From a virus, in IMG/VR virus record IMGVR_UViG_3300006854_000165, positions 1 through 39,364 of that record: a stretch of DNA of 39,364 nt; one strand, 5' to 3'. The position numbers and the translations under genes were made by a program. The first letter of the stretch is position 1. Each line of letters opens with the position of its first letter. The notes beneath the pieces are model-generated. The model ran no database searches and was not told the origin of the DNA. It saw nothing but the letters and a program-made list of their open reading frames with translations. Of this stretch, positions 1,432-39,364 are shown piece by piece.

Positions 1432-1475
1432 AGCCTGACACGTCGCTTGACCAGTGTCAATACACGGTGTACGGT
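1432..1475. promoter_or_regulatory. Divergent promoter pair sharing a palindrome
   Basis: TTGACCAGTGTCAA (1447-1460) is a 14-bp inverted repeat. Read on plus it gives -35 TTGACC (1447-1452), a 17-nt spacer and TACGGT (1470-1475), with a start near 1482 and ATG at 1483. Read on minus it gives TTGACA (1460-1455), a 17-nt spacer and CAGGCT (1437-1432), with a start near 1425, which is the ATG. Both transcripts would be leaderless or almost so. The -35 match is good and the -10 matches are weak. The palindrome could also be an operator. Confidence 0.55.
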
Positions 1476-1482
1476 TCCGCGC

Positions 1483-2289
1483 ATGACCGACCAAGAACGA
1501 CTTCATGTAGCGCATCAACCCAGCGACCATCTCGAGGTCACCGATCAGGGATGGCTTATCGGCCCAGGAACAGAGGCATGTCCCAGCGCTCGCTCGAGCA
1601 AGCTGTGGGTCAACGAGACCAACATCCTTGGCATCGTCTGGCACTATACCGACACGCGCAGCGCTACCGCGATGGGGCTCGCACGCCGCATCATGCAGAT
1701 GCCTGGACCGGGGCAGCGTGCCGCGAGCTGGCACATCTGCATCGACCGTAGCGGTGCGATCGTGCAGAGCATCAGCGCGCTGCTGGGTAGCTGGCACGCT
1801 GGCGGGGCGAGCGCCGCACGATTCGTCGTGGATCGGTTTGTTGAGGACGCCCGCATTGACCTCGCGTCTCCTCCGGTCAAGCGTCGCATCTGGAGGGCCG
1901 TATCCCCGCATACCGGCCTCCCGGGGGCCAATGATCTGTTCCTGGGCATCGAGCTCGAGAACGTCGGCGAGGTGAGGCGGCATGGTGCCGAGTGGCTCGG
2001 CTGGCCATTCGCGCATGGAACCGCGAATGGAGAGCCCGTCGTGGTCCCGGTCGATGAGATCGCCAAACATACAGGCCGTTTCTACCACCAGTTCACGGCG
2101 GCCCAGGTTGACGCCGCACAACGAGTCACCCAGGCACTTGTCGGCAAGTACCATCTGGTGCGCCCCAACTGCACACTTTCTCACCAGGCCATCGACCCCG
2201 AGCGCAGGACCGACCCGGGTCCCGACTGGATGGATCGCTGCCTTCCAATCATCCTTGATCAGGTATTCGGAGGCGGCGCCAGCAAGTAG
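1483..2289 (+). CDS. Endolysin: N-acetylmuramoyl-L-alanine amidase (Amidase_2)
   Basis: 268 residues. It should cleave the amide bond between N-acetylmuramic acid and L-alanine in peptidoglycan. Amidase_2 (T7 lysozyme/AmpD fold) signatures are H54 in GIVWHYTDT, H84 in SWHICIDRSG, H105 in SWHAGG, a GIELEN strand near 155-160, and the C-terminal zinc block H234...RTDPGPDW with D244. There is no signal peptide or membrane segment, so release probably needs a holin. The open frame extends far upstream, but ATG 1483 lies 36 nt after a TTGACC element and matches the family start. It stands alone, far from the lysis membrane genes at 30946-31873, and its end overlaps the convergent gene 2259-2546 by 31 nt. 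Confidence 0.9.
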   Translation: MTDQERLHVAHQPSDHLEVTDQGWLIGPGTEACPSARSSKLWVNETNILGIVWHYTDTRSATAMGLARRIMQMPGPGQRAASWHICIDRSGAIVQSISALLGSWHAGGASAARFVVDRFVEDARIDLASPPVKRRIWRAVSPHTGLPGANDLFLGIELENVGEVRRHGAEWLGWPFAHGTANGEPVVVPVDEIAKHTGRFYHQFTAAQVDAAQRVTQALVGKYHLVRPNCTLSHQAIDPERRTDPGPDWMDRCLPIILDQVFGGGASK

Positions 2290-2546
2290 ATATCGATCCG
2301 ACGCAGGCGGTGCATCTCGACCGTGAGCACGTGCCACTCCGCATCGCGCCACATGTCCTCGACCTTTCCGTAGCGGTGCTCGATCGGAAAACGCAGCGCA
2401 GCAGCCCACGCCTTGAGCGCAGCCGGAGCCTCTGGCTCGTCGCGCTCCCACAGCACCACATCCGCCCTGACTCGGAGCGCGCAATCGAACATCGCCCACA
2501 GCCAGAACGTGTGGTCACGCGAGTCGGTCGGTCGTTCAGCGAACAT
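2259..2546 (-). CDS. Hypothetical protein, third gene of a small early operon
   Basis: 95 residues, not recognised. The sequence has a Trp/Phe-rich start (DHTFWLWAMFDCALRVR), an acidic middle, an aromatic stretch around EDMWRDAEWHVLTVEM and a hydrophobic end (IDIYLLAPPP). No known motif is seen. ATG 2546 overlaps the end of the upstream gene by 11 nt, which suggests translational coupling. The 3' end runs 31 nt into the convergent endolysin gene. Confidence 0.65.
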   Translation of the reverse strand: MFAERPTDSRDHTFWLWAMFDCALRVRADVVLWERDEPEAPAALKAWAAALRFPIEHRYGKVEDMWRDAEWHVLTVEMHRLRRIDIYLLAPPPNT

Positions 2547-2751
2547 CGCACACCCCGTCGTAGCGCTCGTCACCGTGCACGATGGCCAGCACGAGCTCGG
2601 CCGTGGTCTCGCTAGCCATCGCTTCATCGGCCAGCCGCTCGGTCTCGGTGTCGCCGAGCACAGCGGCACGCTCGGCGATGCGCTCAAGCTGAGCCTCATC
2701 GAGCGCCCCGAGGTCACGGCGCCGTTGGACCCGGTCATACCAGGCGATCAT
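2536..2751 (-). CDS. Hypothetical small acidic protein
   Basis: 71 residues, Glu/Ala-rich and probably all alpha-helical (LDEAQLERIAERAAVLGD, ADEAMASETTAELVLAIV). No family recognised. ATG 2751 overlaps the stop of the preceding gene as ATGA, so it is the second gene of the 2948-2259 operon. Confidence 0.65.
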   Translation of the reverse strand: MIAWYDRVQRRRDLGALDEAQLERIAERAAVLGDTETERLADEAMASETTAELVLAIVHGDERYDGVCDVR

Positions 2752-2948
2752 CGCCCTCCCCCATAGACCAGGTCATCGCGGCGGCGCTCGGCTAGCCCGC
2801 ACGCCCGCGCCATAGCCTCCCAGACCTCCCCATCCTGCGATCCACTCGGCGCTGCGGCCATGGAGACCTGCAGCTGGTTGAGTAGGCGTGCCCTGATGTG
2901 TGATAGGGCTGCGATCTGCCGCGCCCGGTTCAAGCTTGATGTCTTCAT
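2748..2948 (-). CDS. Hypothetical small protein, first gene of operon 2948-2259
   Basis: 66 residues, Arg/Ala-rich and probably helical (LNRARQIAALSHIRARLLNQ). No family recognised. ATG 2948 is preceded by GGAGG and lies 35 nt after a TTGACA element on the minus strand. The same position is the predicted transcription start, so the mRNA may be leaderless even though an SD-like sequence is present in the DNA. Confidence 0.6.
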   Translation of the reverse strand: MKTSSLNRARQIAALSHIRARLLNQLQVSMAAAPSGSQDGEVWEAMARACGLAERRRDDLVYGGGR

Positions 2949-2954
2949 GCCTCC

Positions 2955-2983
2955 ACCATGGCATCGCGACAGGCGAGTGTCAA
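2955..2983 (-). promoter_or_regulatory. Promoter of operon 2948-2259
   Basis: Minus-strand TTGACA (2983-2978), a 17-nt spacer, then CATGGT (2960-2955). The predicted start is at about 2948, the first base of the ATG. The -35 box is perfect and the -10 is weak. It follows the same layout as the promoters at 1455, 3022, 4810 and 6160. Confidence 0.5.
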
Positions 2984-2998
2984 GCCACAAGTGCACGG

Positions 2999-3020
2999 CG
3001 TGCTCAATATGCTGAGCACG
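2999..3020. promoter_or_regulatory. Operator-like palindrome between divergent promoters
   Basis: A perfect 8-bp inverted repeat, CGTGCTCA then TGAGCACG, separated by 6 nt (atatgc). It ends one base before the -35 box of the ribbon-helix-helix gene at 3058 and lies 16 bp from the divergent -35 box of operon 2948-2259. Small ribbon-helix-helix proteins often repress their own promoter through such sites. That role is inferred from position only. Confidence 0.5.
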
Positions 3021-3021
3021 G

Positions 3022-3050
3022 TTGACACCACTGTGCGCCCATGAGACATT
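3022..3050 (+). promoter_or_regulatory. Promoter of the 3058-4422 replication cluster
   Basis: TTGACA (3022-3027), a 17-nt spacer and GACATT (3045-3050). The predicted start is near 3057, next to the ATG at 3058. It sits directly beside the palindrome at 2999-3020. Confidence 0.5.
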
Positions 3051-3057
3051 GGCCGGC

Positions 3058-3213
3058 ATGTCCAGAGACAAGCACATGAAACGCCTGAACTTGTGGATCC
3101 CTTGTTCCACCGTGAAGCGCCTGCAGGATGCGGCCACGCGCGCCGGGGTCGACCTCACCACCATGATCCGACTGCGGCTCGATGGCCGTGACATCGTGGA
3201 GGTGCATCGGTGA
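3058..3213 (+). CDS. Ribbon-helix-helix (CopG/Arc-like) DNA-binding protein
   Basis: 51 residues. A beta-strand of alternating residues (KRLNLWIP) is followed by two helices (STVKRLQDAATRAGVDLTTM and IRLRLDGRDI), the layout of a ribbon-helix-helix repressor. These act as dimers that insert the strand into the major groove. ATG 3058 is preferred over a TTG at 3022 because the TTG is part of the -35 box. It heads the replication cluster, with GTGA overlap into the next gene, and probably regulates its own promoter and the divergent one. The fold call comes from sequence pattern, not from a search. Confidence 0.7.
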   Translation: MSRDKHMKRLNLWIPCSTVKRLQDAATRAGVDLTTMIRLRLDGRDIVEVHR

Positions 3214-3434
3214 GCTACGAGCCAATCTGCGGCCTGACCTGGGATGTAGTGCAGGCGAGAAGCTCGGCTAAGCTTGGACGTATCAACACGTTCTGCGCGA
3301 TTTGCTTCATGCAATTCCATCACAGCGGTACGCCTTGCAGCAAGCATATCCTGCCAGAGGAGAAGGCTGAGTACGATGCTCGTTGTTCTGAGATGATGCT
3401 TGCGCTGGCCCTCGAGATCTCGAGGGTGCCATGA
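3210..3434 (+). CDS. Hypothetical Cys/His-rich small protein
   Basis: 74 residues. It starts at GTG 3210, overlapping the previous stop as GTGA. The middle has C-A-I-C, then HH, then C...H (CAICFMQFHHSGTPCSKH), which could hold one zinc ion. The C-terminus is helical and acidic. No family recognised. Its place between the regulator and the replication protein suggests an accessory role in early DNA metabolism, which is inference only. Confidence 0.65.
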   Translation: MSYEPICGLTWDVVQARSSAKLGRINTFCAICFMQFHHSGTPCSKHILPEEKAEYDARCSEMMLALALEISRVP

Positions 3435-3949
3435 GCGAGCTGGACAAGTTCAATGCCATCGCTCGAGCACATCCGGCGTGGCCAGCGTTCGAGGCCGAAG
3501 ATCAGCTATCTCCATGGATTGACCCGCGCGCGGCGTGGTGCGCGTTCCGGAATGGCTGGGATGCCGCCAAGCGCCGGGCTGCGCCCAACCGTCGGCTCGT
3601 TGCCGAGTACACCCCGGACGAGCACGAGTCAGCCATGAACGTGCTGGCCCGGCTCGGCAAGCGCAACGGCATCGCGTACTCGGGCAGCGCAGGTCACGTG
3701 GCCCTCATCGTGGCTCGACTGCGCGAAGGCGTCACCGAGTTCGAGCTGAGGGCGATCGTGGCGCGGCAAGCCGACTTGTGGTCCAGCGACCCGAAGATGC
3801 GCGAGTACCTGAAGCCCGAGACCCTCTTCGGACCCAAGACGATCGCGAAGTACCTCGACCCGGCGCGCACCGAGTACCGCGACCAGATCGCCGAGATGGA
3901 GCGTGCCCACCTCGCGCGCAAATCTCGCCAACTGGAGCTGGTGAGGTGA
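3431..3949 (+). CDS. Phage replication protein with Phg_2220_C domain
   Basis: 172 residues. Residues about 66-146 match the conserved phage C-terminal domain (Phg_2220_C) found in DnaD-like replisome organisers: VLARLGKRNG, a basic helix ending RLREGVTEFEL, then W-x3-DPKMREYLKPETLFG and KYLDP. In relatives this domain follows a DNA-binding N-terminus and helps load the host helicase. Here the N-terminus is short, with a W-x-AFRxGWDAAK helix, and no clear winged helix. ATG 3431 overlaps the previous stop as ATGA. No phage polymerase is present, so this is the best candidate for replication initiator. A phage origin probably lies in or near this cluster, but I see no iterons. Confidence 0.78.
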   Translation: MSELDKFNAIARAHPAWPAFEAEDQLSPWIDPRAAWCAFRNGWDAAKRRAAPNRRLVAEYTPDEHESAMNVLARLGKRNGIAYSGSAGHVALIVARLREGVTEFELRAIVARQADLWSSDPKMREYLKPETLFGPKTIAKYLDPARTEYRDQIAEMERAHLARKSRQLELVR

Positions 3950-4422
3950 CACGAGACTTCGCCACCGATCCAGAGGTCGCTGCAGATCTCGACCGCCAGG
4001 CGCGCACCGAGGCGGACCGCTCTCGAACGCGCGAGACCAGCACGGTCATCGACTCGACCACAGCAGCGACCTGGCCGTGCCTCTACTGCAAGACCGCGGT
4101 TCCGGTTCCCCGAACCGCGGTCGAGATGCGGGACACGTTCAACCGGGCGCTCCGAGCACGCGGTCAGCGTCCTCTCGAGGACACCGCTGTCTGCTCGAGT
4201 TGCTATGCCCGAGAAGAAGCTCGGCGCGTCGAGCTCGGCGAAGCTGCACGCACCCGCTGCGCGCAGCTCGTGCGGGTAATCACCGAGGGCTCCGTCCCGC
4301 CGGCCGACTCGCCCATCGTCCGCGAGCTCCGCAAGCTCGGTCATCCAGACGTGGACGGCCTGCTCAAGTCGCTGCGCGAGCGGAAGTCGCCCGGGTCGAC
4401 TCGAGGTCGTGGGGAGATCTGA
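3946..4422 (+). CDS. Zinc-ribbon-like hypothetical protein
   Basis: 158 residues, starting at GTG 3946 with GTGA overlap. The N-terminal third is charged and probably disordered (ATDPEVAADLDRQARTEADR). A C-L-Y-C knuckle (WPCLYCKTAVPVP) and a C-S-S-C knuckle (AVCSSCYAREEAR) about 40 residues apart could form a zinc ribbon. The C-terminus is helical and basic. It directly follows the replication protein and may be a DNA-binding partner. No family recognised. It is the last gene of this cluster; the intergenic stretch to 4531 holds a GGCGCC inverted repeat (4441-4464) without a T-run. Confidence 0.7.
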   Translation: MTRDFATDPEVAADLDRQARTEADRSRTRETSTVIDSTTAATWPCLYCKTAVPVPRTAVEMRDTFNRALRARGQRPLEDTAVCSSCYAREEARRVELGEAARTRCAQLVRVITEGSVPPADSPIVRELRKLGHPDVDGLLKSLRERKSPGSTRGRGEI

Positions 4423-4530
4423 TCAGCAGACGTTGCAGCTGGCGCCGGTTCCCGGACAGGCGCCCAAAGTAGCGCAAGCCTGTAGGGTATCCGGCGGACA
4501 TCCCTGCGCTCAACCTCTTTGAAGATCGCT

Positions 4531-4782
4531 TCATTTTCTCGTCCTCTTCAGGGGGTTCAGTGGATCGGGAATATCGCTGCGGCCATGCTCAGAATGCATG
4601 CGAACCGCAGCGATAATCAACGCATGCATCGATGGGTAATGGAGCCTATCCTTCTGCTCCTTCACCCATCGTTTTTCGTCATGAGTCAAGCGGATCATGA
4701 CGTTCGCCAGCTGGCGGCGCTTCTTCGGACCTTGCTTCAACCCCACTCGTGCCAGGGCTCGGGCATCGCTTCTTCGTGTCAT
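4531..4782 (-). CDS. Small basic protein, possible ribbon-helix-helix regulator
   Basis: 83 residues, strongly basic. The middle (LANVMIRLTHDEKRWVKEQK then YPSMHALIIAAV) fits a strand-helix-helix pattern like ribbon-helix-helix proteins, with a basic tail on each side. ATG 4782 is chosen because a TTGACA element lies 33 nt upstream with TATTGA as -10, so the predicted transcript begins at the ATG. Two direct GGTGTCAA repeats on plus (4784-4791 and 4808-4815) flank the promoter and could be its operator. The fold assignment is tentative. Confidence 0.6.
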   Translation of the reverse strand: MTRRSDARALARVGLKQGPKKRRQLANVMIRLTHDEKRWVKEQKDRLHYPSMHALIIAAVRMHSEHGRSDIPDPLNPLKRTRK

Positions 4783-4787
4783 GGGTG

Positions 4788-4815
4788 TCAATACCGCACC
4801 CATCGGTGGTGTCAA
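4788..4815 (-). promoter_or_regulatory. Promoter of gene 4531-4782 with direct repeats
   Basis: Minus-strand TTGACA (4815-4810), a 16-nt spacer and TATTGA (4793-4788). The predicted start is at about 4781-4782, so the mRNA would be leaderless. A second TTGACA-like copy overlaps the -10 region, giving two TTGACACC direct repeats 24 bp apart. The -35 overlaps the end of the upstream gene 4812-5126. Confidence 0.5.
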
Positions 4816-5126
4816 GACTCGTCGAGCGGAACCAGCTGCGTGATGTGGTAGGCCAGCGTGGGTAGCTCAGGGTCGTGATCCTGGGCGTCGAGCACCACGT
4901 AGCGATGCTGTCCGCCGGCTGGCAGCGTTGGACATCCCGGCACGGAACGCAGCACGGTTCCGGGAAGGTCGTCCGGGGTGAGAACGCGCTCCCCTGCAAG
5001 TGGCTGCAGCCCACGCCATCGACCGCGGCCCGCCTGGTCTTCGCGCATTGTCCATTCCTCGATGGGTAGGCGCGTGCGCGGCGCCGGTGGAGTCCTGGTT
5101 CCCGAGCCGATGCGGCGGGCGCTCAC
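4812..5126 (-). CDS. Hypothetical protein
   Basis: 104 residues, starting at GTG 5126 and overlapping the previous stop as GTGA. The first 40 residues are Arg/Pro-rich and probably disordered. The rest looks folded, with DDLPGTVLRSVPG, HRYVVLDAQDHDPELP and LAYHITQLVPL. No family recognised. It is the last gene of the minus-strand group that begins at 6129. Confidence 0.6.
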   Translation of the reverse strand: MSARRIGSGTRTPPAPRTRLPIEEWTMREDQAGRGRWRGLQPLAGERVLTPDDLPGTVLRSVPGCPTLPAGGQHRYVVLDAQDHDPELPTLAYHITQLVPLDES

Positions 5127-5362
5127 AGGTCCCCCTCATAGCCAGCGGTGTAGCGCCGGTTCATCGCCTCGATGCGGTCGCACTGGTCGTTGAAGGCGGC
5201 CTCCTTTTCCGCCCGCTGGACGACGTCGGCGCAGATCTCCCGCGCCTTGTCCGCTCCAGCGGCATTCGAGAGCGCCAAGTCGCAGATGACAACCTGCAGG
5301 TGGTCTCCGTGGTCGGCCGCTTCGCTCTTGAGCTTCTCGATCTGCTCGTTCGTGATCTTCAT
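5123..5362 (-). CDS. Hypothetical small helical protein
   Basis: 79 residues with a good ribosome site (AAGGAG, 5 nt before ATG 5362). It is acidic and mostly helical (TNEQIEKLKSEAADHGDHL, DKAREICADVVQRAEKEAAF). No family recognised. It is translationally linked to the next gene by GTGA and separated from the preceding gene by 100 bp in which I see no clear promoter. Confidence 0.68.
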   Translation of the reverse strand: MKITNEQIEKLKSEAADHGDHLQVVICDLALSNAAGADKAREICADVVQRAEKEAAFNDQCDRIEAMNRRYTAGYEGDL

Positions 5363-5462
5363 AGTTCTCCTTGCCCTGGCTCATCAGTACGCAGAGGGCA
5401 ACTGCGTAGACGCCACGGACCGGCGTGGGTGGTGGGAGGGCGCCGGCCCGGAGCGTTTCGCC

Positions 5463-5915
5463 TCAGATCAGTTCCACTCGCGCCCGCGAGGTTCGAACCG
5501 TGACCTTCACCTGGGTCACCTCGCGACGATGGCTGTTCGCGGCGAGTGAGCAGATGCCATCCTTGACCGGGATCTGGATGATGGTGCCATGCCACGCACC
5601 GAGGTACTCGCCGTCAGGGATGCCATGCGAACGAACTACCTCGGCGCTCGCAGGCCACTCGATGCCAGCGTCGATCTCCTCCTGCTCAGCGCTCGCCGCC
5701 GCGTACCACCCATCAACCGCGCCGCTCCAGGCCGCGGAGAACGCGCACATGTTGCCCACCTCGACGTCGAGCCGCTCGAGCGCCATGAACGCGTGGAACG
5801 CGAGCCGCCCGCACCGCTCGCCCTCCATGCGCGCGTTCTCGGGCTCGTCCAACCCCTCGAGTCTCACTGCCTTGCGTCCACTCTGCACAACTGCCCACAT
5901 CTTCATGAAGTTCAT
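5463..5915 (-). CDS. Hypothetical protein
   Basis: 150 residues with AGGAGA before ATG 5915. The N-terminal half is helical (ERCGRLAFHAFMALERLDVEV), followed by an Ala/Trp-rich part (FSAAWSGAVDGWYAAASAEQ) and beta-like sequence (YLGAWHGTIIQIPV, EVTQVKVTVRT). No conserved motif recognised and no membrane segment. It is in the early minus-strand group, 10 bp downstream of gene 5926-6129. Confidence 0.66.
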   Translation of the reverse strand: MNFMKMWAVVQSGRKAVRLEGLDEPENARMEGERCGRLAFHAFMALERLDVEVGNMCAFSAAWSGAVDGWYAAASAEQEEIDAGIEWPASAEVVRSHGIPDGEYLGAWHGTIIQIPVKDGICSLAANSHRREVTQVKVTVRTSRARVELI

Positions 5916-5925
5916 CTGAATTCTC

Positions 5926-6129
5926 CTATCGGGTTCCGAGTTGCGAAGACGGGCTGACCTGGATCCATCCAGCGTCGACCTTTGTCGCGAGCTCGAGCAC
6001 TGCAGCTTGGCTCATCGAGGTCTCGTACCAGTAGCGAATCGGCCCCTTGCTCACGAGCTGGATGCGCTCGCCGGCCGCGTGGATGGCCCGGACCAGTTCG
6101 GGTGAGCTCGTCTGCAGCATCGTCTTCAT
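5926..6129 (-). CDS. Hypothetical small protein, first of group 6129-4812
   Basis: 67 residues: helix (SSPELVRAIHAAGERIQLVS), strand (GPIRYWYETSM), then helix. No family recognised. ATG 6129 lies 36 nt after a TTGACA element on the minus strand, at the predicted transcription start. Earlier start codons exist in the same frame but lie upstream of the promoter. A longer competing frame (5912-6574) overlaps it and is rejected. Confidence 0.6.
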   Translation of the reverse strand: MKTMLQTSSPELVRAIHAAGERIQLVSKGPIRYWYETSMSQAAVLELATKVDAGWIQVSPSSQLGTR

Positions 6130-6136
6130 GCTTCCC

Positions 6137-6165
6137 CAGATGTTCATGCAGCATGCCAGTGTCAA
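6137..6165 (-). promoter_or_regulatory. Promoter of group 6129-4812
   Basis: Minus-strand TTGACA (6165-6160), a 17-nt spacer and CATCTG (6142-6137). The predicted start is near 6130, one base from the ATG. Bases after the -35 (CACTGG) are the same as in the promoter at 1455-1460. Confidence 0.48.
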
Positions 6166-6731
6166 GACACAGCCAACCACCTGGACTCGCTCGAGCGCCC
6201 AGCGGGCTGGACCAGCAACATGCGCCAACCTGGCTCACTCGCCATCCAATGCCGCCCCATCCGGCCACGTCGACATTCGCTACATGTACGACTACACCCC
6301 TACCGGAAGGCAGGAGAACCGGCGTCGTCGCAGGACGGAGGTGAGGTCCAGCGCCGTCCTGCATCGAGGGCGCCGTAGCTTCGCGCTCTGGCTCTGCTTC
6401 TCCCTCCTCTCCGCCTCTGCCAAAAAGCGAAGCGATCCAAGGATAGACGCCCCCGCCGAGCGCGGGGGCTGCGGGGGTCTCCTCCGACGCTTGCGGGCGT
6501 CCCGACTCCCGAGCGCTGGCAACATCCGAACCTGATGAGCACCGGACAGGGGCTGGGGGTCTGGAGTGCACCAACTACCAGAGGAGAAGAGAGAACCACT
6601 GAACAGGCGGTCTGTCAAGCGAATACGCCCATTCAGTGAAACTTAGTCGGCACAGGCACTTGCATAGCATTGAGACGGGCTCAGGACGGTGGCTCTTGAT
6701 CTGCGATTCAGGACTTGACACACTTGCAGCC
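6166..6731. other. Non-coding region between early and late genes
   Basis: No gene with coding-like composition is seen on either strand. The region holds a perfect 8-bp hairpin (GCCCCCGC, 5-nt loop, GCGGGGGC at 6449-6469) without an adjacent T-run, a purine-rich stretch at 6579-6597 and a minus-strand promoter-like site at 6590-6618. It lies just before the small terminase gene, the usual place for a pac or cos recognition site, but I cannot identify one directly. Confidence 0.55.
6590..6618 (-). promoter_or_regulatory. Promoter-like site pointing leftward
   Basis: Minus-strand TTGACA (6618-6613), a 17-nt spacer and TTCTCT (6595-6590). The 10 bases GTGGTTCTCT occur at the same distance from TTGACA as in the portal promoter at 10312. 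No gene follows at the expected distance. A short non-coding transcript ending near the hairpin at 6449-6469 is possible. Confidence 0.4.
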
Positions 6732-6743
6732 GTGGAAGATTAC
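6715..6743 (+). promoter_or_regulatory. Candidate late promoter before the terminase genes
   Basis: TTGACA (6715-6720), a 17-nt spacer and GATTAC (6738-6743), with a predicted start near 6750. If real, the small terminase must start downstream, at GTG 6762 or 6765. It would be the first rightward promoter of the late operon. Confidence 0.4.
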
Positions 6744-7130
6744 AACCCCCCGCACTCGGCTGTGGTGGTCCCTGGAGAGACCGTCGGCGAGCGGCTACTC
6801 AACGTCGCGGCGGAGTGTGTGAGCCTGTCGCTGCTCACCGGGGCGCTCGGAGAGCGGTTGGCGCACTGGATGCGATCGACGGAGAAGGAGAAGCCTCTGC
6901 CACCAGAGGAGTGGAACGATGGGTTCGAGCTCTACTCGAAGGCGGTGCTCGGGCTCGCCAAGGAGGAGCGGGTGCGCAGGGAGCTGGTGAGACGGCTTGA
7001 GGGGGCCGGTGTGGTGCATCTGACCGAGAAGCAGTACCGCGAGGAGCTGGACCAGCTCGCCGAGGAGACGGTGAAGCGGCTGCCCGAGCATCGCCTGCAG
7101 GAGCTACTGGATGAACGGCAGCGGCGCTGA
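6732..7130 (+). CDS. Probable terminase small subunit
   Basis: About 132 residues, mostly charged helices (EEWNDGFELYSKAVLGLAKE, RELVRRLEGAGVVHL, LAEETVKRLPEHRLQELL). Small terminases recognise the packaging site and regulate the large subunit. I do not recognise the family; the call rests on size, helical content and position before terL. The start is uncertain: the frame opens at GTG 6636, but codons before 6732 look non-coding. A promoter-like site at 6715-6743 would favour GTG 6762. None of these starts has a good ribosome site. Confidence 0.6.
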   Translation: MEDYNPPHSAVVVPGETVGERLLNVAAECVSLSLLTGALGERLAHWMRSTEKEKPLPPEEWNDGFELYSKAVLGLAKEERVRRELVRRLEGAGVVHLTEKQYREELDQLAEETVKRLPEHRLQELLDERQRR

Positions 7131-7329
7131 GGTGCTCTCTGCGGCTGCGGTGGGCGCCGGAGGTCATACGGCTCGACCGACTGCTCTGAAGCGAGAGCGG
7201 CAACGCCAGGCGCAACACGATTGGCTTCTCGCCGAGCTGTTCCCACCGCGCCCGCCATGCAGCCCGCAGCACTGGCCGCTGGTGCTGGCGATCAACTGCG
7301 CAGCTGCGCGGGTGGCCGAGTACTTCTGA
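7111..7329 (+). CDS. Hypothetical protein between the terminase genes
   Basis: 72 residues. It starts at ATG 7111 inside the end of the small terminase gene (20-nt overlap) and ends as TGATG with the large subunit start. It is Ala-rich, with a basic helix (LKRERQRQAQHDWLLAELF) and a Pro-rich segment. No family recognised. The tight overlaps on both sides support a real coupled gene. Confidence 0.58.
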   Translation: MNGSGAEVLSAAAVGAGGHTARPTALKRERQRQAQHDWLLAELFPPRPPCSPQHWPLVLAINCAAARVAEYF

Positions 7330-8984
7330 TGGACATTGGCGCTCTGCTGGCAACTCGTCGAGCGCGTCGCGCTGATGAGCGGGCGGTGCGAGCGCTGACC
7401 GATGAGTGGTACGCGACGCAGCGAGCGGTGTGGACCGACCGCGCTCAGCTTGTGGCCTGGCATGGCGGGCGCCGCATGGGCAAGACCAGAGCAGGCGTGC
7501 GCTCGTTCCTCGACGAGCTTCTCTCGGTACCCGGGTCTCGCCAGTTGTACATCAACGAGACGGCGGGCGAGGCGGAGAGGCTGGCCTGGGTCGGCAACCG
7601 AGGGGATGGGTTCGAGCCGCTACTCAGCGAGTTGGGGATGCTCGAGAGCGGTCGTGGGCTGAGCCGCAAGCCGGGCCGAGTGAAGCTCGACCGCTCGACG
7701 TTGAGCATTCATTGCCCGGACATGGACAGCTGGATCTACCTGCGCGGCGCCGACGACGAAGCGGGGATCCGACGGGCACTGGGTGGTGCCTACAACCGCG
7801 TGTGGTGGGACGAGGCTCAGAAGATACCGAGCAAGCTGGCGACGACGATCCGCGAGGTCTTCATGCCGGCGCTGCTCGACTTCCGGGGGCGCTTCGTCGT
7901 CACCGGGACCGCGGTGCGCCAGATGCTCGGGCTGTTCTATGAGATCACCCGGCCCGAGCTCGATAAGCGCATGCCCGGCTGGTCGGTGCATTTCAGCAAC
8001 CTCCTCGAGAATCCGTACTGGGGGCACGCGAAAGGGCGGTACGTCGTCTGGGGCGCGCGCGATGAGGTCGTCAGCGGACCGCATATGCCGGGCGAGATGC
8101 CGGCGGCGATCTCCGGTGCTCGTTGGGAGATGGGCATGGTCGCTCTGCAGCGCCTGCTCGGTGGCCCCGAGGTCGCCCCGTTCGACGGCCCGACGATGCA
8201 GCGTGAGGGCTTCGGGCGCTGGGTCCGTGAGGACGCGAGCTACGTCTACCACGTGCATCAGGTACCCCGAGAGAAGCTCGTGTACGCGCCGCACCGCACG
8301 CGCGCTGATGGCTTCCCGGACATCCGCGCCGCGCTGCAGGATCTTCCCTGGGGCAAGGGCGAGGCATGGCGAGAAGGGCTGTTCGCGCTCGGTGGTGACC
8401 TCGGCTACCACCCGGACCCGTTCGCGTTCGTGCTGTGGGGATGGCACATGCACGACCGGCGCCTCTACGAGGTCGCGAGTTGGAAGCGGACGATGCTCGA
8501 CTCGGACGAGCAAGCGCGCGTGCTGCACTCAATCCGCGCTGAGCTCGCGCTGGCGATCACCGTGGTCGATGCCGGCGGGCCGGCCAAGCCGACGGTCGTG
8601 GGCTGGAGCAAAGAATGGGTGGAGCGGTACTCACTGCCGATCGAGGAGGCGCAGAAGGCGCACAAGCACACCGCCATCGAGGTGCTCAACGGCGACATCC
8701 GCACGGGCGGCGTGGCCCTGCGCGATGGGTCACCGCTGATGGCCGAGATGGAGGAGCTCCAGTGGCTCACCCGGCTCGTCGATGCGCGTGGCCGGATGAT
8801 CGAAGACCCAACCCAGCACAATCACTGCTGTGATGCGGCGCTCTACGCACATCGGCACAGCTATCAGTACCGGTGGCGACCAGAAGAGGTCAGACCGGCG
8901 CCGGGAACGCCAGAGCATGCTGTCCGGGAAGAGGCGGCGCTTGAGGATGAGGCGTTTTCTGAGCTAGATGAGGGATTCTCGTGA
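7329..8984 (+). CDS. terL: Terminase large subunit (ATPase and nuclease)
   Basis: 551 residues. It packages DNA into proheads by ATP hydrolysis and cuts concatemers. Walker A is GGRRMGKT (46-53) and Walker B is VWWDEAQ (158-164), with a VTGTA coupling motif near 191-195. The C-terminal RNase H-like nuclease has D357 (ALGGDLGYHPDPF), D414 (TVVDAGG) and D502 (HCCDAALYAH). ATG 7329 overlaps the preceding stop as TGATG; the upstream in-frame extension (7221-7328) overlaps gene 7111-7329 and is rejected. Length is typical. All key residues are present. Confidence 0.95.
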   Translation: MDIGALLATRRARRADERAVRALTDEWYATQRAVWTDRAQLVAWHGGRRMGKTRAGVRSFLDELLSVPGSRQLYINETAGEAERLAWVGNRGDGFEPLLSELGMLESGRGLSRKPGRVKLDRSTLSIHCPDMDSWIYLRGADDEAGIRRALGGAYNRVWWDEAQKIPSKLATTIREVFMPALLDFRGRFVVTGTAVRQMLGLFYEITRPELDKRMPGWSVHFSNLLENPYWGHAKGRYVVWGARDEVVSGPHMPGEMPAAISGARWEMGMVALQRLLGGPEVAPFDGPTMQREGFGRWVREDASYVYHVHQVPREKLVYAPHRTRADGFPDIRAALQDLPWGKGEAWREGLFALGGDLGYHPDPFAFVLWGWHMHDRRLYEVASWKRTMLDSDEQARVLHSIRAELALAITVVDAGGPAKPTVVGWSKEWVERYSLPIEEAQKAHKHTAIEVLNGDIRTGGVALRDGSPLMAEMEELQWLTRLVDARGRMIEDPTQHNHCCDAALYAHRHSYQYRWRPEEVRPAPGTPEHAVREEAALEDEAFSELDEGFS

Positions 8985-9008
8985 CACGAGTGAGGTACTA
9001 CTCACCGC

Positions 9009-9653
9009 ATGGCGAACCCGGCGGTAGGTCAACTCTGCACGTTGTCGTTCGGTGGCGGTCGCGTGCATCCGTGCGTGATCACCAAGGTCGTGAGCGGGAC
9101 GAACGTCAACCTCGCGATGCTCAACGACGATCAGACCCAGACGTGGGACGACGGCGTCGGCGCGCCCGGCGTGGTCGGGGTGCAGCAGTTGGCGAACGTC
9201 GCCAAGGGCTCGGGAACGGGCCAATGGCAGGACATCGTCACGCCGGACCCGGTGCTCGCCGACATGGCAGCTGCGGTCACGGCCGGCGGTTCCAGCTTCC
9301 TGGCCAGCGCCTACTCCGCGAGCCAGCCGTCCCGATCGCTCAACGCCAACTTCCAGCCCAGCGCGACCCGCCCGACGCTTTGCGTCTACACCGGCACGTG
9401 GCAGGGCTCGCTCTCGGTCACCGGATCGCAGACCGGAACGGTCGAGCTCCGCAGCGACTCCGCGGCGACGCCGACGACCGCGAGAACCAGCGTCGTGCCC
9501 GCGGTGAACCTGGCACTCGGGCTCACAGTGGGCTCGACCATCAACCTACCGTGGGTGCTGGCGTACTCGTGCATCGCCGGCCACAACGTTCGGCTCGTGA
9601 CCAGCGGAACCGGGACGTTCGTGATCACCAGCTCATGCGAGATTGTGATGTGA
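9009..9653 (+). CDS. Virion structural protein with beta-rich C-terminal domain
   Basis: 214 residues. The N-terminal half (PAVGQLCTLSFGGGRVHPCV) looks like a small beta-domain. From about residue 100 the sequence SQPSRSLNANFQPSATRPTL, followed by TGSQTGTVELRSDS, matches a beta-sandwich pattern that recurs in phage fibre and decoration proteins. The end (GHNVRLVTSGTGTFVI) is of the same type. Its position between terL and portal suggests a head decoration or head fibre, but a tail role is possible. A GTGAG/CTCAC hairpin lies just upstream of ATG 9009. Confidence 0.68.
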   Translation: MANPAVGQLCTLSFGGGRVHPCVITKVVSGTNVNLAMLNDDQTQTWDDGVGAPGVVGVQQLANVAKGSGTGQWQDIVTPDPVLADMAAAVTAGGSSFLASAYSASQPSRSLNANFQPSATRPTLCVYTGTWQGSLSVTGSQTGTVELRSDSAATPTTARTSVVPAVNLALGLTVGSTINLPWVLAYSCIAGHNVRLVTSGTGTFVITSSCEIVM

Positions 9654-9654
9654 A

Positions 9655-9882
9655 ATGGCAGATATAGACGACGTCAAGGAGCTGATCTTGTGGTCTCGTG
9701 ATCGCGGCGTGGTCCTGCATCGCGTTCGGGTCGGCGCCGTCGAGCTCGACATCGCATCGATGCAGCAGGGGAGGCCGACGCCAACGGAGGACGAGGCGCG
9801 CAAAGGGCTCTATGCGACCATGGGTGGCGAGGTCGTGCAGAAGATCCTCGATGAGGATGAAGCCTACACCGAGGATGACTGA
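9655..9882 (+). CDS. Hypothetical small acidic protein
   Basis: 75 residues beginning 1 nt after the preceding stop. It has a helical start (DDVKELILWSRDRGV), one short strand (VGAVELDI) and an acidic helical tail ending DEDEAYTEDD. No family recognised. Many phages carry a small acidic protein of this kind in the head module. It ends exactly beside the convergent gene 9883-10257. Confidence 0.65.
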   Translation: MADIDDVKELILWSRDRGVVLHRVRVGAVELDIASMQQGRPTPTEDEARKGLYATMGGEVVQKILDEDEAYTEDD

Positions 9883-10257
9883 TCACTTGGCCCAGGCGCG
9901 GACACGAACGCGAGCGGCCTGCCCCAGTGGCGGGACTGCAGCGGGATCGAGCCAGACCAGCACATGAGCTCGGTCGTGGTTCTCGTCGTAGCGGAGCAGC
10001 GGGGGGCCGCCCGAGAAGTCGACGATCGCATCGATGGGAGGGTCGGGGACCACGGGAACGGTGGTGGGTTGGTTGCTGTAGTGGAAGCTGGCCAGGACGC
10101 GGGGCGTTCCCGTGAAGGGTTGGACGAGCGTCACCTCCTGGCCGGCAGATAGGAAGCCAAAGTAGTGCATCGCCCGCGGATCGTGTGGGCTGGTAACCGG
10201 GGCGGCGACGCCTCCGATGGTCGGGTTGAGGTCGATCTCACGCAGGTAGTCATGCAT
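9883..10257 (-). CDS. Opposite-strand hypothetical protein in the head module
   Basis: 124 residues, minus strand, inserted between two plus-strand head genes with no spare bases at its 3' end. The sequence looks beta-rich and folded (PIDAIVDFSGGPPLLRYDE, HVLVWLDPAAVPPLG, ARVRVRAWAK). No family recognised, no signal peptide. I find no strong promoter before ATG 10257. Its orientation suggests a separately acquired moron-like gene expressed at a different time from the late operon. Confidence 0.6.
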   Translation of the reverse strand: MHDYLREIDLNPTIGGVAAPVTSPHDPRAMHYFGFLSAGQEVTLVQPFTGTPRVLASFHYSNQPTTVPVVPDPPIDAIVDFSGGPPLLRYDENHDRAHVLVWLDPAAVPPLGQAARVRVRAWAK

Positions 10258-10311
10258 GCGCGGAAGCTACCACCTGGGGTTGCTGTGGGGTAACCGGCAT
10301 GATCAACTTGC

Positions 10312-10340
10312 TTGACACCTTGTCGCGTGGGTGGTTCTCT
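10312..10340 (+). promoter_or_regulatory. Promoter of the portal gene
   Basis: TTGACA (10312-10317), a 17-nt spacer and TTCTCT (10335-10340). The predicted start is near 10347, beside GTG 10349. The GTGGTTCTCT block is shared with the site at 6590-6618. It would restart rightward transcription after the opposite-strand gene 9883-10257. Confidence 0.5.
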
Positions 10341-10348
10341 ACCCGGGA

Positions 10349-12340
10349 GTGGCAAGGAAACGCAATCGCCGGGCGGGTGTGCAAGAACCCATCAGGGCGC
10401 GGCGTGCGCCCATCGGCGATGAGAGCGGCTCGACCCTTCGTTGGTGGACGCTCAAGCCGGACGACGAGGGCTCGATCCACGTTGCGAACGCGGTGTTCGG
10501 CTGGATCGAGCGCCTGCGCGCGCGGCGCCGGGTCTCTGGCCTGCGCGACCTGCTGCACGAGGCCATCTACAAGGGGCGGCCGCTCGGCTCGTTGGGAGAC
10601 AACGAGCAGGCGTGGCTCAAGAGCAGCGCGCGATCGCCCGGCCAGCTCAACCTCGCCCGCTCGATGGTGGACACCGCCACCGCGCGCCTGACCAAGGTCC
10701 GCACGTTCCCGGTGATCAGCGCAGATGACGCGACCTGGGGCGAGAAGCGCAACGCCAAGACCGCGTCCCGCGTCATCCGGCGCAAGCTCGGCAGCGCCAA
10801 GCTCGAGCGCCAGAAGCCGGCAGTGATCCGCGCGGCGCTGATCCGCGGGACGGCCGTGCAGAAGGTCATCCGGCGGGGCGGTGACGTCGATGTCGAGCAC
10901 GTGCCCCGTTACGAGATCGTGCACGACCCTCGCGAGGCCAGATACGGCGAGCCGCGTTGCTTGGCGCACATCAAGCCGGTGCCCAAGAGCGTGCTCGCCG
11001 AGCGGTTCCCGGAGTACCAGGAGCAGATCGACCACGCCGCGACCTACGAGACCCAGGATGCGTGGATGGCCTACGTCTACGACGGCCCTGGCTACAACGA
11101 TCACGTCGAGGTCGCAGACATCTGGCATCTCCCCAGCGGGCCGGATGCCGACGATGGCACACACGTCATCGCGATTCGCGGCGTCGTGCTGCTCTGGGAG
11201 CCATGGACCCGGCCGCGCATGCCGCTGGTGTTCACGCACTGGTCGCCGCCCATCGACGAGATGTGGGGGCAGGGGCTCGTCGAGGACCTTGCCGGTATCC
11301 AGTCGTTGGTGAACCGCATCGCGCAGGATTCCCAGGAGGGCCACTATTGGTCATCCGCGGTGAAGCTGTTTGTGCAGCGCACGAGCGGCATCAACAAGCA
11401 CCACATGAAGGCGCGCTACCCAGCGCTGATCGAGCACGACGGTCCAGTGCCGGCGTACATCGCACCGAACCCCCAGGTCGAGCAGGCGCTGCGGCTCCTC
11501 GACTGGTACATCCAGCGCGCCTACGAGATCAGCGGCATCTCGCAGATGAGCGCATCGAGCAAGTCCACGCTCGGCAGCAACGCCAGCGGCAAGGCGCTCG
11601 ACACGATGGACGACCTGCAATCCGATCGGTTCGCACATGTCGAGGCCGGGTGGAAGGCAAGCCAGTGCGAGCTCGCGCAGGTGATGATCGACGAGGCGCG
11701 GGCCATCTCTGAAGATGAGAGCATCGCGCGGAGCGACAAGGCTGCGTGGATCACCGCGACCGACTGGAGTCGGGTCGACACCGATGCCGGCGACTACCAC
11801 CTGTACATCGAGCCCGAGAACTTCATCCCGGGCACGCGCGCTGGCCGACTCGAATACATCGAGGCCCTGGGCAAGAACGGGCTCATCCCTGATCCATCGA
11901 TGATCGCCGACGGGTTCGACGAGCCCGACCTGCAGCGGATGAACCGCACCACGCTCGGTCCGTTGCACAACATCCAGCGCATCGCCGACGGTCTCGCTGA
12001 CCCGAGGGTTCCGATGTTCGACCTGCAGCCGCACGCGAACATGAACTTGCCGCTCGCGAAGCTCGTCATCAACGGTGAGCTGAACGAGGCGGAGGCGTGC
12101 GGCGCGAGCGACGAGGAGTTGCAGCGCTACCGCGATTGGCTCGAATATCTGCGCGAGCTGATGACTTCTGCCACCTCGGGCTCGCCATCGCTGCCCGGCT
12201 CAATGCCCGACAACATGGGTCCGCAGCCCAATGCTACGACTCTTCAACCCGGGCTTCCGATGCCCGGAGGCCCGCCCGGTCCTGGCATGCCGCCGGGCGG
12301 TGCTCTACCCCCAGGGATGCCGCCGATGGGAATGGCATGA
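10349..12340 (+). CDS. Portal protein
   Basis: 663 residues from GTG 10349. It forms the dodecameric DNA gate at one head vertex. The length fits podovirus portals. Visible segments include the wing/stem region RPRMPLVFTHWSPPIDEMWG, then GLVEDLAGIQSLVNRIAQDS, and a helix-rich crown with YEISGISQMSASSKSTLGSN and SGKALDTMDDLQSDR, a layout typical of portals. The C-terminus is a Pro/Gly/Met-rich tail (about 610-663) that is probably disordered. A GTG at 10331 is in frame but overlaps the predicted -10 box. The stop overlaps the next start as ATGA. Confidence 0.85.
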   Translation: MARKRNRRAGVQEPIRARRAPIGDESGSTLRWWTLKPDDEGSIHVANAVFGWIERLRARRRVSGLRDLLHEAIYKGRPLGSLGDNEQAWLKSSARSPGQLNLARSMVDTATARLTKVRTFPVISADDATWGEKRNAKTASRVIRRKLGSAKLERQKPAVIRAALIRGTAVQKVIRRGGDVDVEHVPRYEIVHDPREARYGEPRCLAHIKPVPKSVLAERFPEYQEQIDHAATYETQDAWMAYVYDGPGYNDHVEVADIWHLPSGPDADDGTHVIAIRGVVLLWEPWTRPRMPLVFTHWSPPIDEMWGQGLVEDLAGIQSLVNRIAQDSQEGHYWSSAVKLFVQRTSGINKHHMKARYPALIEHDGPVPAYIAPNPQVEQALRLLDWYIQRAYEISGISQMSASSKSTLGSNASGKALDTMDDLQSDRFAHVEAGWKASQCELAQVMIDEARAISEDESIARSDKAAWITATDWSRVDTDAGDYHLYIEPENFIPGTRAGRLEYIEALGKNGLIPDPSMIADGFDEPDLQRMNRTTLGPLHNIQRIADGLADPRVPMFDLQPHANMNLPLAKLVINGELNEAEACGASDEELQRYRDWLEYLRELMTSATSGSPSLPGSMPDNMGPQPNATTLQPGLPMPGGPPGPGMPPGGALPPGMPPMGMA

Positions 12341-33308: not shown

Positions 33309-33673
33309 GACTTCCTCCGGCGAATCTCCTCGTGCAGAGACTTCGCGAGCGCGAGCTTTCGATCCTGTGATGCCGGTACCACGACTGGCACGATGAAGTC
33401 GCTGCCAGTCTTCGGAGCATCCTTGCGGAGCTGTAGGAAGTCGGGCAATAGGGCGCGCTGCCCAGCAAGCACGTCCTTCACCTCTTGGGTCATCGGATAG
33501 GCGTCCTTAAGCATCGCATCGAACTTCGCGACATCGGTAGTGCGGAATCGCTTCTGCTCAGCCCGCCATGCCAGGCGACGCGCGCTCGCGCGACCGTGGC
33601 GAACACCGAGTGCATAGTTGAAGAACATCGTCGCGAGCAGGATGCTCCAGGCGAGCGCCTGCCACCAGCTCAC
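33305..33673 (-). CDS. Hypothetical single-span membrane protein
   Basis: 122 residues from GTG 33673. The N-terminus is one membrane helix (ALAWSILLATMFFNYALGV) followed by a very basic stretch (RHGRASARRLAWRAEQKRF), so the rest should be cytoplasmic. The C-terminal part is helical. No family recognised. It directly follows groES in the operon. Confidence 0.64.
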   Translation of the reverse strand: MSWWQALAWSILLATMFFNYALGVRHGRASARRLAWRAEQKRFRTTDVAKFDAMLKDAYPMTQEVKDVLAGQRALLPDFLQLRKDAPKTGSDFIVPVVVPASQDRKLALAKSLHEEIRRRKS

Positions 33674-34152
33674 GACGGCATCTCCGGCAGCGGGTCGATC
33701 TCGTCCGGGTCAGCCCAGCCCTCCTTGACCGCGACCCGCATCTCCTCCTGCGACTGGTATGCGGAGTCGGGGATGGCCAGGCTGCGCGGCATGACCGACA
33801 ACAGCCGGCCATTGGCATCGGTGAGTGCCGACACGACTGGAAGGTCGTGCACGATGCTCACGACCTCCGCCTCACGCATCAGGAGCTTCGTGCTCTCCCT
33901 GCCATCCTCATCAATCACCGGGATGAGCGCGGGGGCCTTGCGTGGGTAGCAGATGACGTCTCCCGGCTTCACGGTGAGCGGCACGACCTTGCCCTCCGCG
34001 TTGACGCGCCCTGCACCAACGGCATCCACCGTGGCGAAGGCGACGTGCTTGTTCTCCTGCGCAACATCGGGGACGAAGATCCCCCCCGGCGTGCGGCGGC
34101 GCTCCGATACCGGAGTCGCGATGATGCGGTCTGCGAGTGGCTGGTGTCTCAT
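33670..34152 (-). CDS. GroES-like co-chaperonin
   Basis: 160 residues. Residues 1-100 match the Cpn10 fold: PLADRIIATPV, GGIFVPDVAQE, VDAVGAGR, then VKPGDVICYPRKAPALIPV and MREAEVVSIV. These caps seal the GroEL chamber; phage versions such as T4 gp31 let the host chaperonin fold phage proteins, usually the coat protein. Residues 101-160 are an extra tail of unknown role not found in host GroES. ATG 34152 has a GGAGG site, and a tRNA-like element ends about 13 nt upstream. It is placed among early genes, so it would be made before coat protein synthesis. Confidence 0.85.
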   Translation of the reverse strand: MRHQPLADRIIATPVSERRRTPGGIFVPDVAQENKHVAFATVDAVGAGRVNAEGKVVPLTVKPGDVICYPRKAPALIPVIDEDGRESTKLLMREAEVVSIVHDLPVVSALTDANGRLLSVMPRSLAIPDSAYQSQEEMRVAVKEGWADPDEIDPLPEMPS

Positions 34153-34384: not shown

Positions 34385-34465
34385 GATCATATACCGACCT
34401 TTTCAGCGATATCGATCCGCACGGTCGCGGATTATTCTTGCCGTCCTTCTTCATTGGTACTGACA

Positions 34466-34852
34466 CTACCGGTGCGCCAGTGCTTCGTCAAGATGCATCC
34501 GAGTTGCTGAGAACCGAGCGAGCAGCTGCTTGGTTGCAGGACCCGGCACCGTATAGATGAACGGCGCAGCGAGCGACCGATTCGCCGGCCACGCTGCGTC
34601 GATCATCTTCCGGGCGACACCCACACCGCGGGCTTCTCTGCGCACGTACAGGTAGTGCAGCAGGCGGATACTGGGAAGCGCGGCGATCGCGAGCCATCCG
34701 AGGATGTGCTCGGGATCGCGCTCGACCACGAGAACACGGGTGAACGGATGGTCCAGGACTCGATCGATCGTGGTGCTCGACAGTCCGCTCGACCATCCCC
34801 AGGTCGACGCAACGTACCTCCGGTCGTCTGGCTTCCACACCCGGACCCTCAC
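34466..34852 (-). CDS. GNAT-family acetyltransferase
   Basis: 128 residues from GTG 34852 (GTGA overlap). Acetyl-CoA-binding motif A is LHYLYVRREARGVGVARKMI (66-85) with the R-x2-G-x-A-like loop R75-G-V-G-V-A80. Strand VLVVERDPEHILGWLAI precedes it. The target is unknown; a phage GNAT could modify host protein or nucleotide. It lies upstream of the structured leader and groES. The C-terminal part (PGPATKQLLARFSATRM) looks complete. Confidence 0.75.
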   Translation of the reverse strand: MRVRVWKPDDRRYVASTWGWSSGLSSTTIDRVLDHPFTRVLVVERDPEHILGWLAIAALPSIRLLHYLYVRREARGVGVARKMIDAAWPANRSLAAPFIYTVPGPATKQLLARFSATRMHLDEALAHR

Positions 34853-38137: not shown

Positions 38138-39364
38138 TCAGGTCTCCAGGGAAGGGATGTACTCGTGGCCATAACGGCCGTAGGTGCTCGCGATGGCATT
38201 TTGGCAGGTCATCTTCTGGGGCTTGCGTGATTCCGGCGTCGAGTACGGTGAACCAGGGAATGGCAGTGGCCGAAGCTGCGGATCGCAGCGGAATGGTCCG
38301 TATACCTTCAGCGTTCCATCTGGCTCCGGGGTGCTATTGATGACCTTGATTGCCACGTATGGCTCGTCGTCAGGGATGTCGATGCGCAGAAGCTCGCGCG
38401 GATTGCCGAGCATATCGACATCGGAGTGAATGACCTTGGCTCCGATGTCGCGGATCCAGCGGCCGGAGTCTCCCTCGTTGTACTTGGCGATCATCACCCG
38501 GCGAACTTCGGCATTCGACTGGTCCAGACATTCCTGCGCTGTGAATTGACCAGCGGTGATCCGGGGGGTGACCCGAATGCCGTGGATATGGTGCAGCTCC
38601 ACGCCATCACGCCACCTGATGTGCGGTCCGTTCGCGTTGTGCGCGCGACACACCGGGCTTCCATCGCGATACACGAACTCCGGGCGATCTGCGATGATGC
38701 AGAAGTCCGCATGAATGAAGCGCGGTCCGAGCTTTCCCAAGTCTTCATACGCCGCAAACTTGGAGTAGTCGATGTCGAGCTTGGCGACGTGCCGGAAGAA
38801 CGTCAGATACGACAGCCAACCCGACCACATGTTTCCGCCGTTCCAGAACTTCCACCAATGTTGGGTGCACTGAATGAGGAATCCGACGACGCCAGTTGTG
38901 GCGGCGCGCGTGGCGGCGTACGTGGCGGCGTCCGTGGCGGCGCTCGTGGCGGCGTCCGTGGCGGCGTCCGTGGCGTCGACCGTGGCGGCGTACGTGGCGG
39001 CGCTTGTGGCGACGCGCGTGGCGGCGTCCGTGGCGGCGTACGTGGCGGCGCTTGTGGCGGCGTACGTGGCGGCGTCCGTGGCGGCGCGCGTGGCGACGCG
39101 CGTGGCGGCGCTTGTGGCGACGCTCGTGGCGGCGTCCGTGGCGGCGCTCGTGGCGACGCGCGTGGCGGCGCTTGTGGCGACGCTCGTGGCGGCGTCCGTG
39201 GCGGCGCTCGTGGCGACGCGCGTGGCGGCGCTTGTGGCGACGCTCGTGGCGGCGTCCGTGGCGGCGCGCGTGGCGGCGTACGTGGCGGCGTCCGTGGCGG
39301 CGCGCGTGGCGGCGTCCGTGGCGGCGTCCGTGGCGTCGACCGTGGCGGCGTACGTGGCGGCGCT
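38138..39364 (-). CDS. DUF6745-like repeat protein, C-terminal part (runs off the right end)
   Basis: Continuation of 1-872. From 39364 to 38897 the frame reads 39 Ala-Ala-Thr-x units, then TTGVVGFLIQCTQHWWKFWN and about 250 folded residues: PRFIHADFCIIADRPEFVYR, GPHIRWRDGVELHHIHGIRV, NAEVRRVMIAKYNEG and INSTPEPDGTLKVYGPFRC. These are the blocks of DUF6745 (HADF..CDRP, GPxxxWxDG, NxEVRRVMI, VNSTPEPDG). The family is of unknown function and often carries an AAT/DAT-type low-complexity segment before this domain. Stop at 38138. Together with the left part the protein has at least 690 residues. Confidence 0.85.
   Translation of the reverse strand, partial: SAATYAATVDATDAATDAATRAATDAATYAATRAATDAATSVATSAATRVATSAATDAATSVATSAATRVATSAATDAATSVATSAATRVATRAATDAATYAATSAATYAATDAATRVATSAATYAATVDATDAATDAATSAATDAATYAATRAATTGVVGFLIQCTQHWWKFWNGGNMWSGWLSYLTFFRHVAKLDIDYSKFAAYEDLGKLGPRFIHADFCIIADRPEFVYRDGSPVCRAHNANGPHIRWRDGVELHHIHGIRVTPRITAGQFTAQECLDQSNAEVRRVMIAKYNEGDSGRWIRDIGAKVIHSDVDMLGNPRELLRIDIPDDEPYVAIKVINSTPEPDGTLKVYGPFRCDPQLRPLPFPGSPYSTPESRKPQKMTCQNAIASTYGRYGHEYIPSLET
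38897..39364 (-). repeat. 12-bp tandem array, right part (39 units)
   Basis: 39 complete units in the same register and frame as the left array. A 60-bp higher-order unit is repeated: 39121-39180 and 39181-39240 are identical, and 39061-39120 is a diverged copy with three mismatches. The last 60 bases of the window (39305-39364) are an exact copy of 38945-39004, which is where an assembler would stop. The true length is therefore uncertain. Confidence 0.95.

Follow-up and report, generated by a model that had tools for sequence, protein, structure and literature searches.

Why should a strong -35 hexamer stand at a nearly constant distance from the start codons of a virus? The question is raised by IMG/VR virus record IMGVR_UViG_3300006854_000165, analysed here as a single stretch of 39,364 nt (hereafter the window; ~66% GC). 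A first-pass annotation had listed TTGACA or TTGACC 33-37 nt before an ATG or GTG at seven places, and had interpreted them as a distinct promoter class with a strong -35 and a poor -10, perhaps requiring an activator, that drives leaderless transcripts. Here we present an in silico analysis which upholds the leaderless transcripts and argues against the distinct class. These elements are very probably host housekeeping sigma-70-type promoters in which the start codon coincides with the transcription start, giving leaderless mRNAs. In the mechanism that we propose, a TTGACA -35, a 17-nt spacer and an NANNNT -10 ending 6-7 nt before the ATG or GTG would make the A or G of the start codon the first transcribed base, or let transcription begin no more than 1-2 nt ahead of it. 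The mRNA would lack a Shine-Dalgarno leader and would be translated from its 5'-terminal AUG or GUG. We infer that RNA polymerase would initiate at the codon via the main sigma factor and that ribosomes would accept these mRNAs. The device would serve early-type regulators, small genes of unknown function, an endolysin-like amidase and the portal gene, with genes inside operons often using Shine-Dalgarno sites instead.

The record represents a soil phage from an uncultivated lineage, judged by its gene content to be tailed: terminase, portal, capsid, RecT, YqaJ exonuclease, amidase and a GroES-like protein are recognisable, the last encoded at 33670-34152 and resembling the GroES co-chaperonin. 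Arrays of a 12-nt GTGGCGGCG-type repeat, ~40 copies per side, occupy 3-478 and 38898-39364 and read as VAAx repeats in one frame; because both contig ends lie within the same repeat, this is probably a circular or nearly complete genome. Among 50,697 isolate phage records none matched TerL, portal or capsid, and profiles of TerL and portal run against 84,980 species genomes to trace the host yielded no relative. Matches to RecT and the exonuclease are found in many phages, the best at only ~28-34% identity, and 20 IMG/VR contigs encode related terminases. Rfam and tRNA searches found nothing. The cyanobacterial HIP1 octamer, GCGATCGC, occurs 14 times in the whole window (3.4 expected) and is without clear enrichment in relatives.

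All seven boxes were recovered at the positions and distances originally reported. On the minus strand, the promoter at 1432..1460 combines TTGACA (1460-1455), a 17-nt spacer and the -10 CAGGCT (1437-1432); its box begins 35 nt before ATG 1425, the predicted transcription start of a gene of unknown function (940-1425). Facing the other way, the promoter at 1447..1475 (plus strand; TTGACC 1447-1452, 17 nt, TACGGT 1470-1475) has its box 36 nt before ATG 1483, and the predicted transcription start adjoins this first codon of the amidase gene (1483-2289), a likely endolysin. A second diverging pair comprises 2955..2983 (minus; TTGACA 2983-2978, CATGGT 2960-2955), 35 nt before ATG 2948 of a 66-aa ORF (2748-2948), and 3022..3050 (plus; TTGACA 3022-3027, GACATT 3045-3050), 36 nt before ATG 3058 of a 51-aa small protein. 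Further along, 4788..4815 (minus; TTGACA 4815-4810, 16 nt, TATTGA 4793-4788) stands 33 nt before ATG 4782 of an 83-aa protein that is ribbon-helix-helix-like by eye, and 6137..6165 (minus; TTGACA 6165-6160, weak CATCTG 6142-6137) stands 36 nt before ATG 6129 of a 67-aa protein. The portal promoter, 10312..10340 (plus; TTGACA 10312-10317, TTCTCT 10335-10340), lies 37 nt before GTG 10349. The start codons are therefore six ATG and one GTG, the two codons expected of leaderless genes. An eighth site, missed in the first pass, lies at 34463..34491 (minus; TTGACG 34491-34486, 17 nt, TAGTGT 34468-34463, 8 nt, ATG 34454; 53 aa). A ninth start, ATG 10257 of a 124-aa minus-strand gene, follows a leaderless-type -10 (TAGCTT, 10264..10269) by 6 nt, without a clear -35. 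A standard promoter scan of the window detected none of the proposed sites.

Neither TTGACA (10 copies in the window against 7.0-8.7 expected) nor TTGACM (25 against 21) is over-represented, so the claim rests on position. If a start is taken as any ATG or GTG that opens an ORF of 40 codons or more, 6 of the 10 TTGACA copies have one at 33-37 nt; the share among random positions is 9.6% (binomial p ~1e-4). The placement of TTGACA relative to starts is thus non-random. For TTGACM the count is 8 of 25 (p 0.002), including 38546+, which lies antisense to a gene. Beyond 10.3 kb, only one TTGACA (15612+) occurs in the remaining 29 kb. As a separate observation, TTGACACAC occurs at 6715+, ahead of the gene that precedes the terminase; its distances to GTG 6732 (17 nt) and GTG 6762 (47 nt) are not those of a leaderless start.

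Since the 33-37 range was chosen after viewing the window, the relatives constitute the real test, and the motif search that the first-pass annotation had suggested gave a positional signal in them as well as in the window. Among related IMG/VR phages, an ATG-ORF lies at 33-37 nt for 18 of 69 distinct TTGACA sites (2.6 expected), and 12 of these lie at exactly 35 nt, compared with ~0.5 per offset. The statistics of this analysis derive in part from a home-made gene caller and from partly related records. Most one-mismatch hexamers show no positional effect in the relatives. The full pattern TTGACA-N14-18-NANNNT-N4-8-RTG was found 11 times across 13 related records, against no match for the reversed control. 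We also considered 40 added loci, mostly around distant portal genes, as a replication of the signal and rejected them, as they show no TTGACA enrichment (1 site, 0.5 expected). The TTGACA form of the signal is thus established only for the window and its nearer relatives.

The preferred distance has a simple anatomy: 35 nt equals 6+17+6+6, that is the -35, a standard spacer, the -10 and the usual 6 nt to a transcription start on the A of the ATG. TTGACA and NANNNT separated by 17 nt constitute the ordinary housekeeping-sigma consensus. The -10 and the initiating base were assessed on 22 TTGACA sites, five of them from the window. NANNNT is present 11-13 nt before the ATG at 15 of the 22, against 8.6% of all ATG-ORFs (p 1e-11), and is also well above its frequency at other spacer offsets; the stricter TANNNT occupies the -10 place at 5 of 22 sites (background 0.9%). 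When -35 boxes are left out of account, TANNNT has a peak 12 nt upstream of candidate starts, with 18 occurrences against about 3. As a class, the sites thus show the features of housekeeping sigma-70/SigA promoters (TTGACA, a spacer of 16-18 and mostly 17 nt, a -10 with A2 and T6), and a -10 ending ~6 nt before the start codon, as in sigma-70-type TA-led leaderless genes. CATCTG, TTCTCT and TATTGA are the window's exceptions to the A2/T6 rule.

The start codon itself resembles an initiation site. C precedes the ATG at 18 of the 22 sites (baseline 35-43%; p 9e-6 to 2e-4), and C-1/A+1 at the start codon fits the pyrimidine/purine initiator of transcription. From this and the geometry, the mRNA 5' end is predicted at the start codon, and the sites at 36-37 nt could have a leader of 1-2 nt. 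Shine-Dalgarno sequences are rare in genes with the leaderless signal (4/30 versus 224/458; Fisher p 1e-4), and structure in their first 36 nt is somewhat weaker than elsewhere (-4.6 versus -6.2 kcal/mol for other genes; p 0.014).

The position of the box is kept in orthologues at 32-58% protein identity. In the relative L021, the orthologue of the 1425 gene (1758-, 58% aa) has TTGACA-17-CATGAT-6-ATG with the start codons aligned, and that of the amidase (3081-, 54% aa) aligns from residue 1 and follows TTGACG-17-CATCAT-6-ATG; the relative arrangement of the two genes differs from that in the window. In L003, at ~33% identity, the orthologue of the 3058 gene (1928+) follows TTGACA-17-GACGGT-6-ATG and the homologue of the 4782 gene (3880-) follows TTGACC-18-AATACT-6-ATG. 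No orthologue of the 6129 gene was found. For the portal gene, the same GTG is preceded at 37 nt by TTGACT in close relatives, where the -10 reads AATTCT or AATCCT, and the L042 portal has TAGCTT-6-GTG. Near-consensus -10s (TATGAT, TAGGAT, TAGAGT) occur at the same place in relatives. On a separate matter, many distant relatives have no ATG, GTG or TTG near the conserved N-terminus of the portal frame (L074, L076, L078, L079, L083, L092, L095, L096, L099 and others). CTG or ACG is found there, often 1-4 nt after an out-of-frame ATG and preceded by a GCGC...CCAG...GCGC element, possibly reflecting a non-AUG start by coupling, or a frameshift.

The two diverging pairs have distinct layouts. At 1447..1460 the palindrome TTGAC-CAGT-GTCAA arises where the -35 boxes of the promoters for 1425- and 1483+ interleave; the two start codons are 57 nt apart, and L021 has the same layout at 3068/3081 beside its orthologous amidase. 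Because the boxes interleave, RNA polymerase should occupy one promoter at a time and so serve only one direction at once. Tentatively, and with considerable doubt, 1447-1460 may be a compact two-way leaderless promoter acting as a simple switch, with the endolysin-like amidase on one side and an early gene read leftward on the other; the arrangement is worth testing. Considered as a general viral device, the interleaved palindrome was rejected, as a search of IMG/VR returned G005 itself and two low-GC, ORF-less contigs, probably by chance; a copy in L020 was also rejected, its minus-strand ORF looking spurious. Between the promoters for 2948- and 3058+ lies instead a perfect palindrome, CGTGCTCA-N6-TGAGCACG (2999..3020), centred ~61.5 nt ahead of the start of 2948- and 48.5 nt ahead of that of 3058+. 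It is a possible regulator site, though not a family-wide element, being a single copy across the window and the relatives examined. In the relative L041, an operator-like palindrome, GTTATCG-N5-CGATAAC, stands between the -35 and the start codon within two leaderless-type promoters (15224- and 19520-). This element, the 2999-3020 palindrome and an excess of the heptamer TTGACAC make regulation of the window promoters plausible, and it may act through the latter two.

That heptamer also suggests another reading, in which TTGACAC serves chiefly as the operator of a DNA-binding phage protein (e.g. ribbon-helix-helix or helix-turn-helix) and the overlap with promoters is incidental. It accounts for 9 of the 10 TTGACA copies in the window (2.2 expected), GTGT-N4-ACAC dyads occur at 1460-, 6165- and several L021 and L003 sites, and the 4782 gene has two copies of TTGACACC, the second overlapping its -10; small ribbon-helix-helix-like proteins are encoded nearby. 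However, TTGACA stays at 35 nt in more distant relatives that do not keep the final C of the heptamer, and both the -10 signal and the fixed spacing point to a promoter, so we regard the operator as an unlikely replacement for the promoter; lying over the -35, it would add to it. Still less probable are ordinary promoters with short leaders, whose true starts would lie further downstream and be served by Shine-Dalgarno sites. GGAG or GGGG does occur near the ATG at 1425-, 2948- and 6129-, and the L008 portal has TTGACA 41 nt before its ATG, predicting a leader of ~6 nt. But the GGAG runs lie 1-2 nt from the ATG, too close for Shine-Dalgarno pairing, and would stay untranscribed; the exact 35-nt peak in relatives, the alignment of orthologous proteins from the proposed start codons and the Shine-Dalgarno deficit also oppose this reading.

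Chance pairing, whereby matching boxes and starts were simply picked from a GC-rich genome with many candidate starts, is exceedingly improbable. It would agree with the ordinary abundance of TTGACA and with the share of positions that qualify, but not with the bias in the window, its independent confirmation in relatives over a distance range fixed beforehand, or its conservation in diverged orthologues. The activator-dependent, poor -10 class of the first-pass annotation, needing a phage or host factor, likewise receives little credence from us. Two poor -10s in the window (CATCTG and TTCTCT) and the palindrome upstream of the 2948- and 3058+ starts would favour it; yet the key A(-11) and T(-7) are kept at most sites, relatives have better -10s, and the seven sites share no upstream element that we could find, the one palindrome belonging to one divergent pair. 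In Deinococcus radiodurans, transcription from leaderless -10 motifs, variants included, increases when a consensus -35 stands 17 bp upstream (PMC12340547), which indicates that weak -10s need no special activator. The leaderless part of the first-pass interpretation, by contrast, has good in silico support in the geometry kept in relatives, the NANNNT in place, C-1/A+1 and the Shine-Dalgarno deficit.

The housekeeping-promoter reading predicts which genes have leaderless mRNAs in a phage lineage without an isolate; it thereby corrects gene starts and points to a host in which such mRNAs are well translated. Leaderless genes are already known in many bacteria and some phages, and the present phage would be a further case. 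The lambda cI mRNA transcribed from PRM is a leaderless phage transcript from a sigma-70 promoter. There a single regulator gene of a Shine-Dalgarno-dominated phage is concerned, whereas here several genes, including the amidase and portal, would be leaderless. The Thermus phage phiYS40 has leaderless mRNAs as well (reviewed in PMC3594737), comparable to those predicted here; infection by that different phage alters host IF2/IF3 expression (PMC3594737).

Among bacteria, such genes are common across Actinobacteria and Deinococcus-Thermus and less so in delta-Proteobacteria and Acidobacteria, and Zheng et al. 2011 reported TANNNT ~12 nt before their starts (PMC3160421). The phage genes resemble the TANNNT-led leaderless genes of high-GC bacteria (PMC3160421, PMC3898074) in the -10 offset of ~12 nt, in the absence of a Shine-Dalgarno sequence and in an mRNA 5' end at the ATG or GTG, which for the phage is predicted from sequence. 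In mycobacteria, neither CTG nor TTG works as a start codon in the leaderless position (PMC4633059). Promoters of M. tuberculosis have no conserved -35 (PMC3898074), whereas TTGACA is the strongest element in the phage and its -10 is looser (NANNNT). A matching layout is known from Deinococcus-Thermus, where a -10 motif adjoins the ORF and the -35 added at 17 bp reproduces the phage arrangement, although most natural Deinococcus examples have no -35 (PMC12340547). The phage would thus provide natural examples in which it is the strong -35, and not the -10, that identifies a promoter as leaderless.
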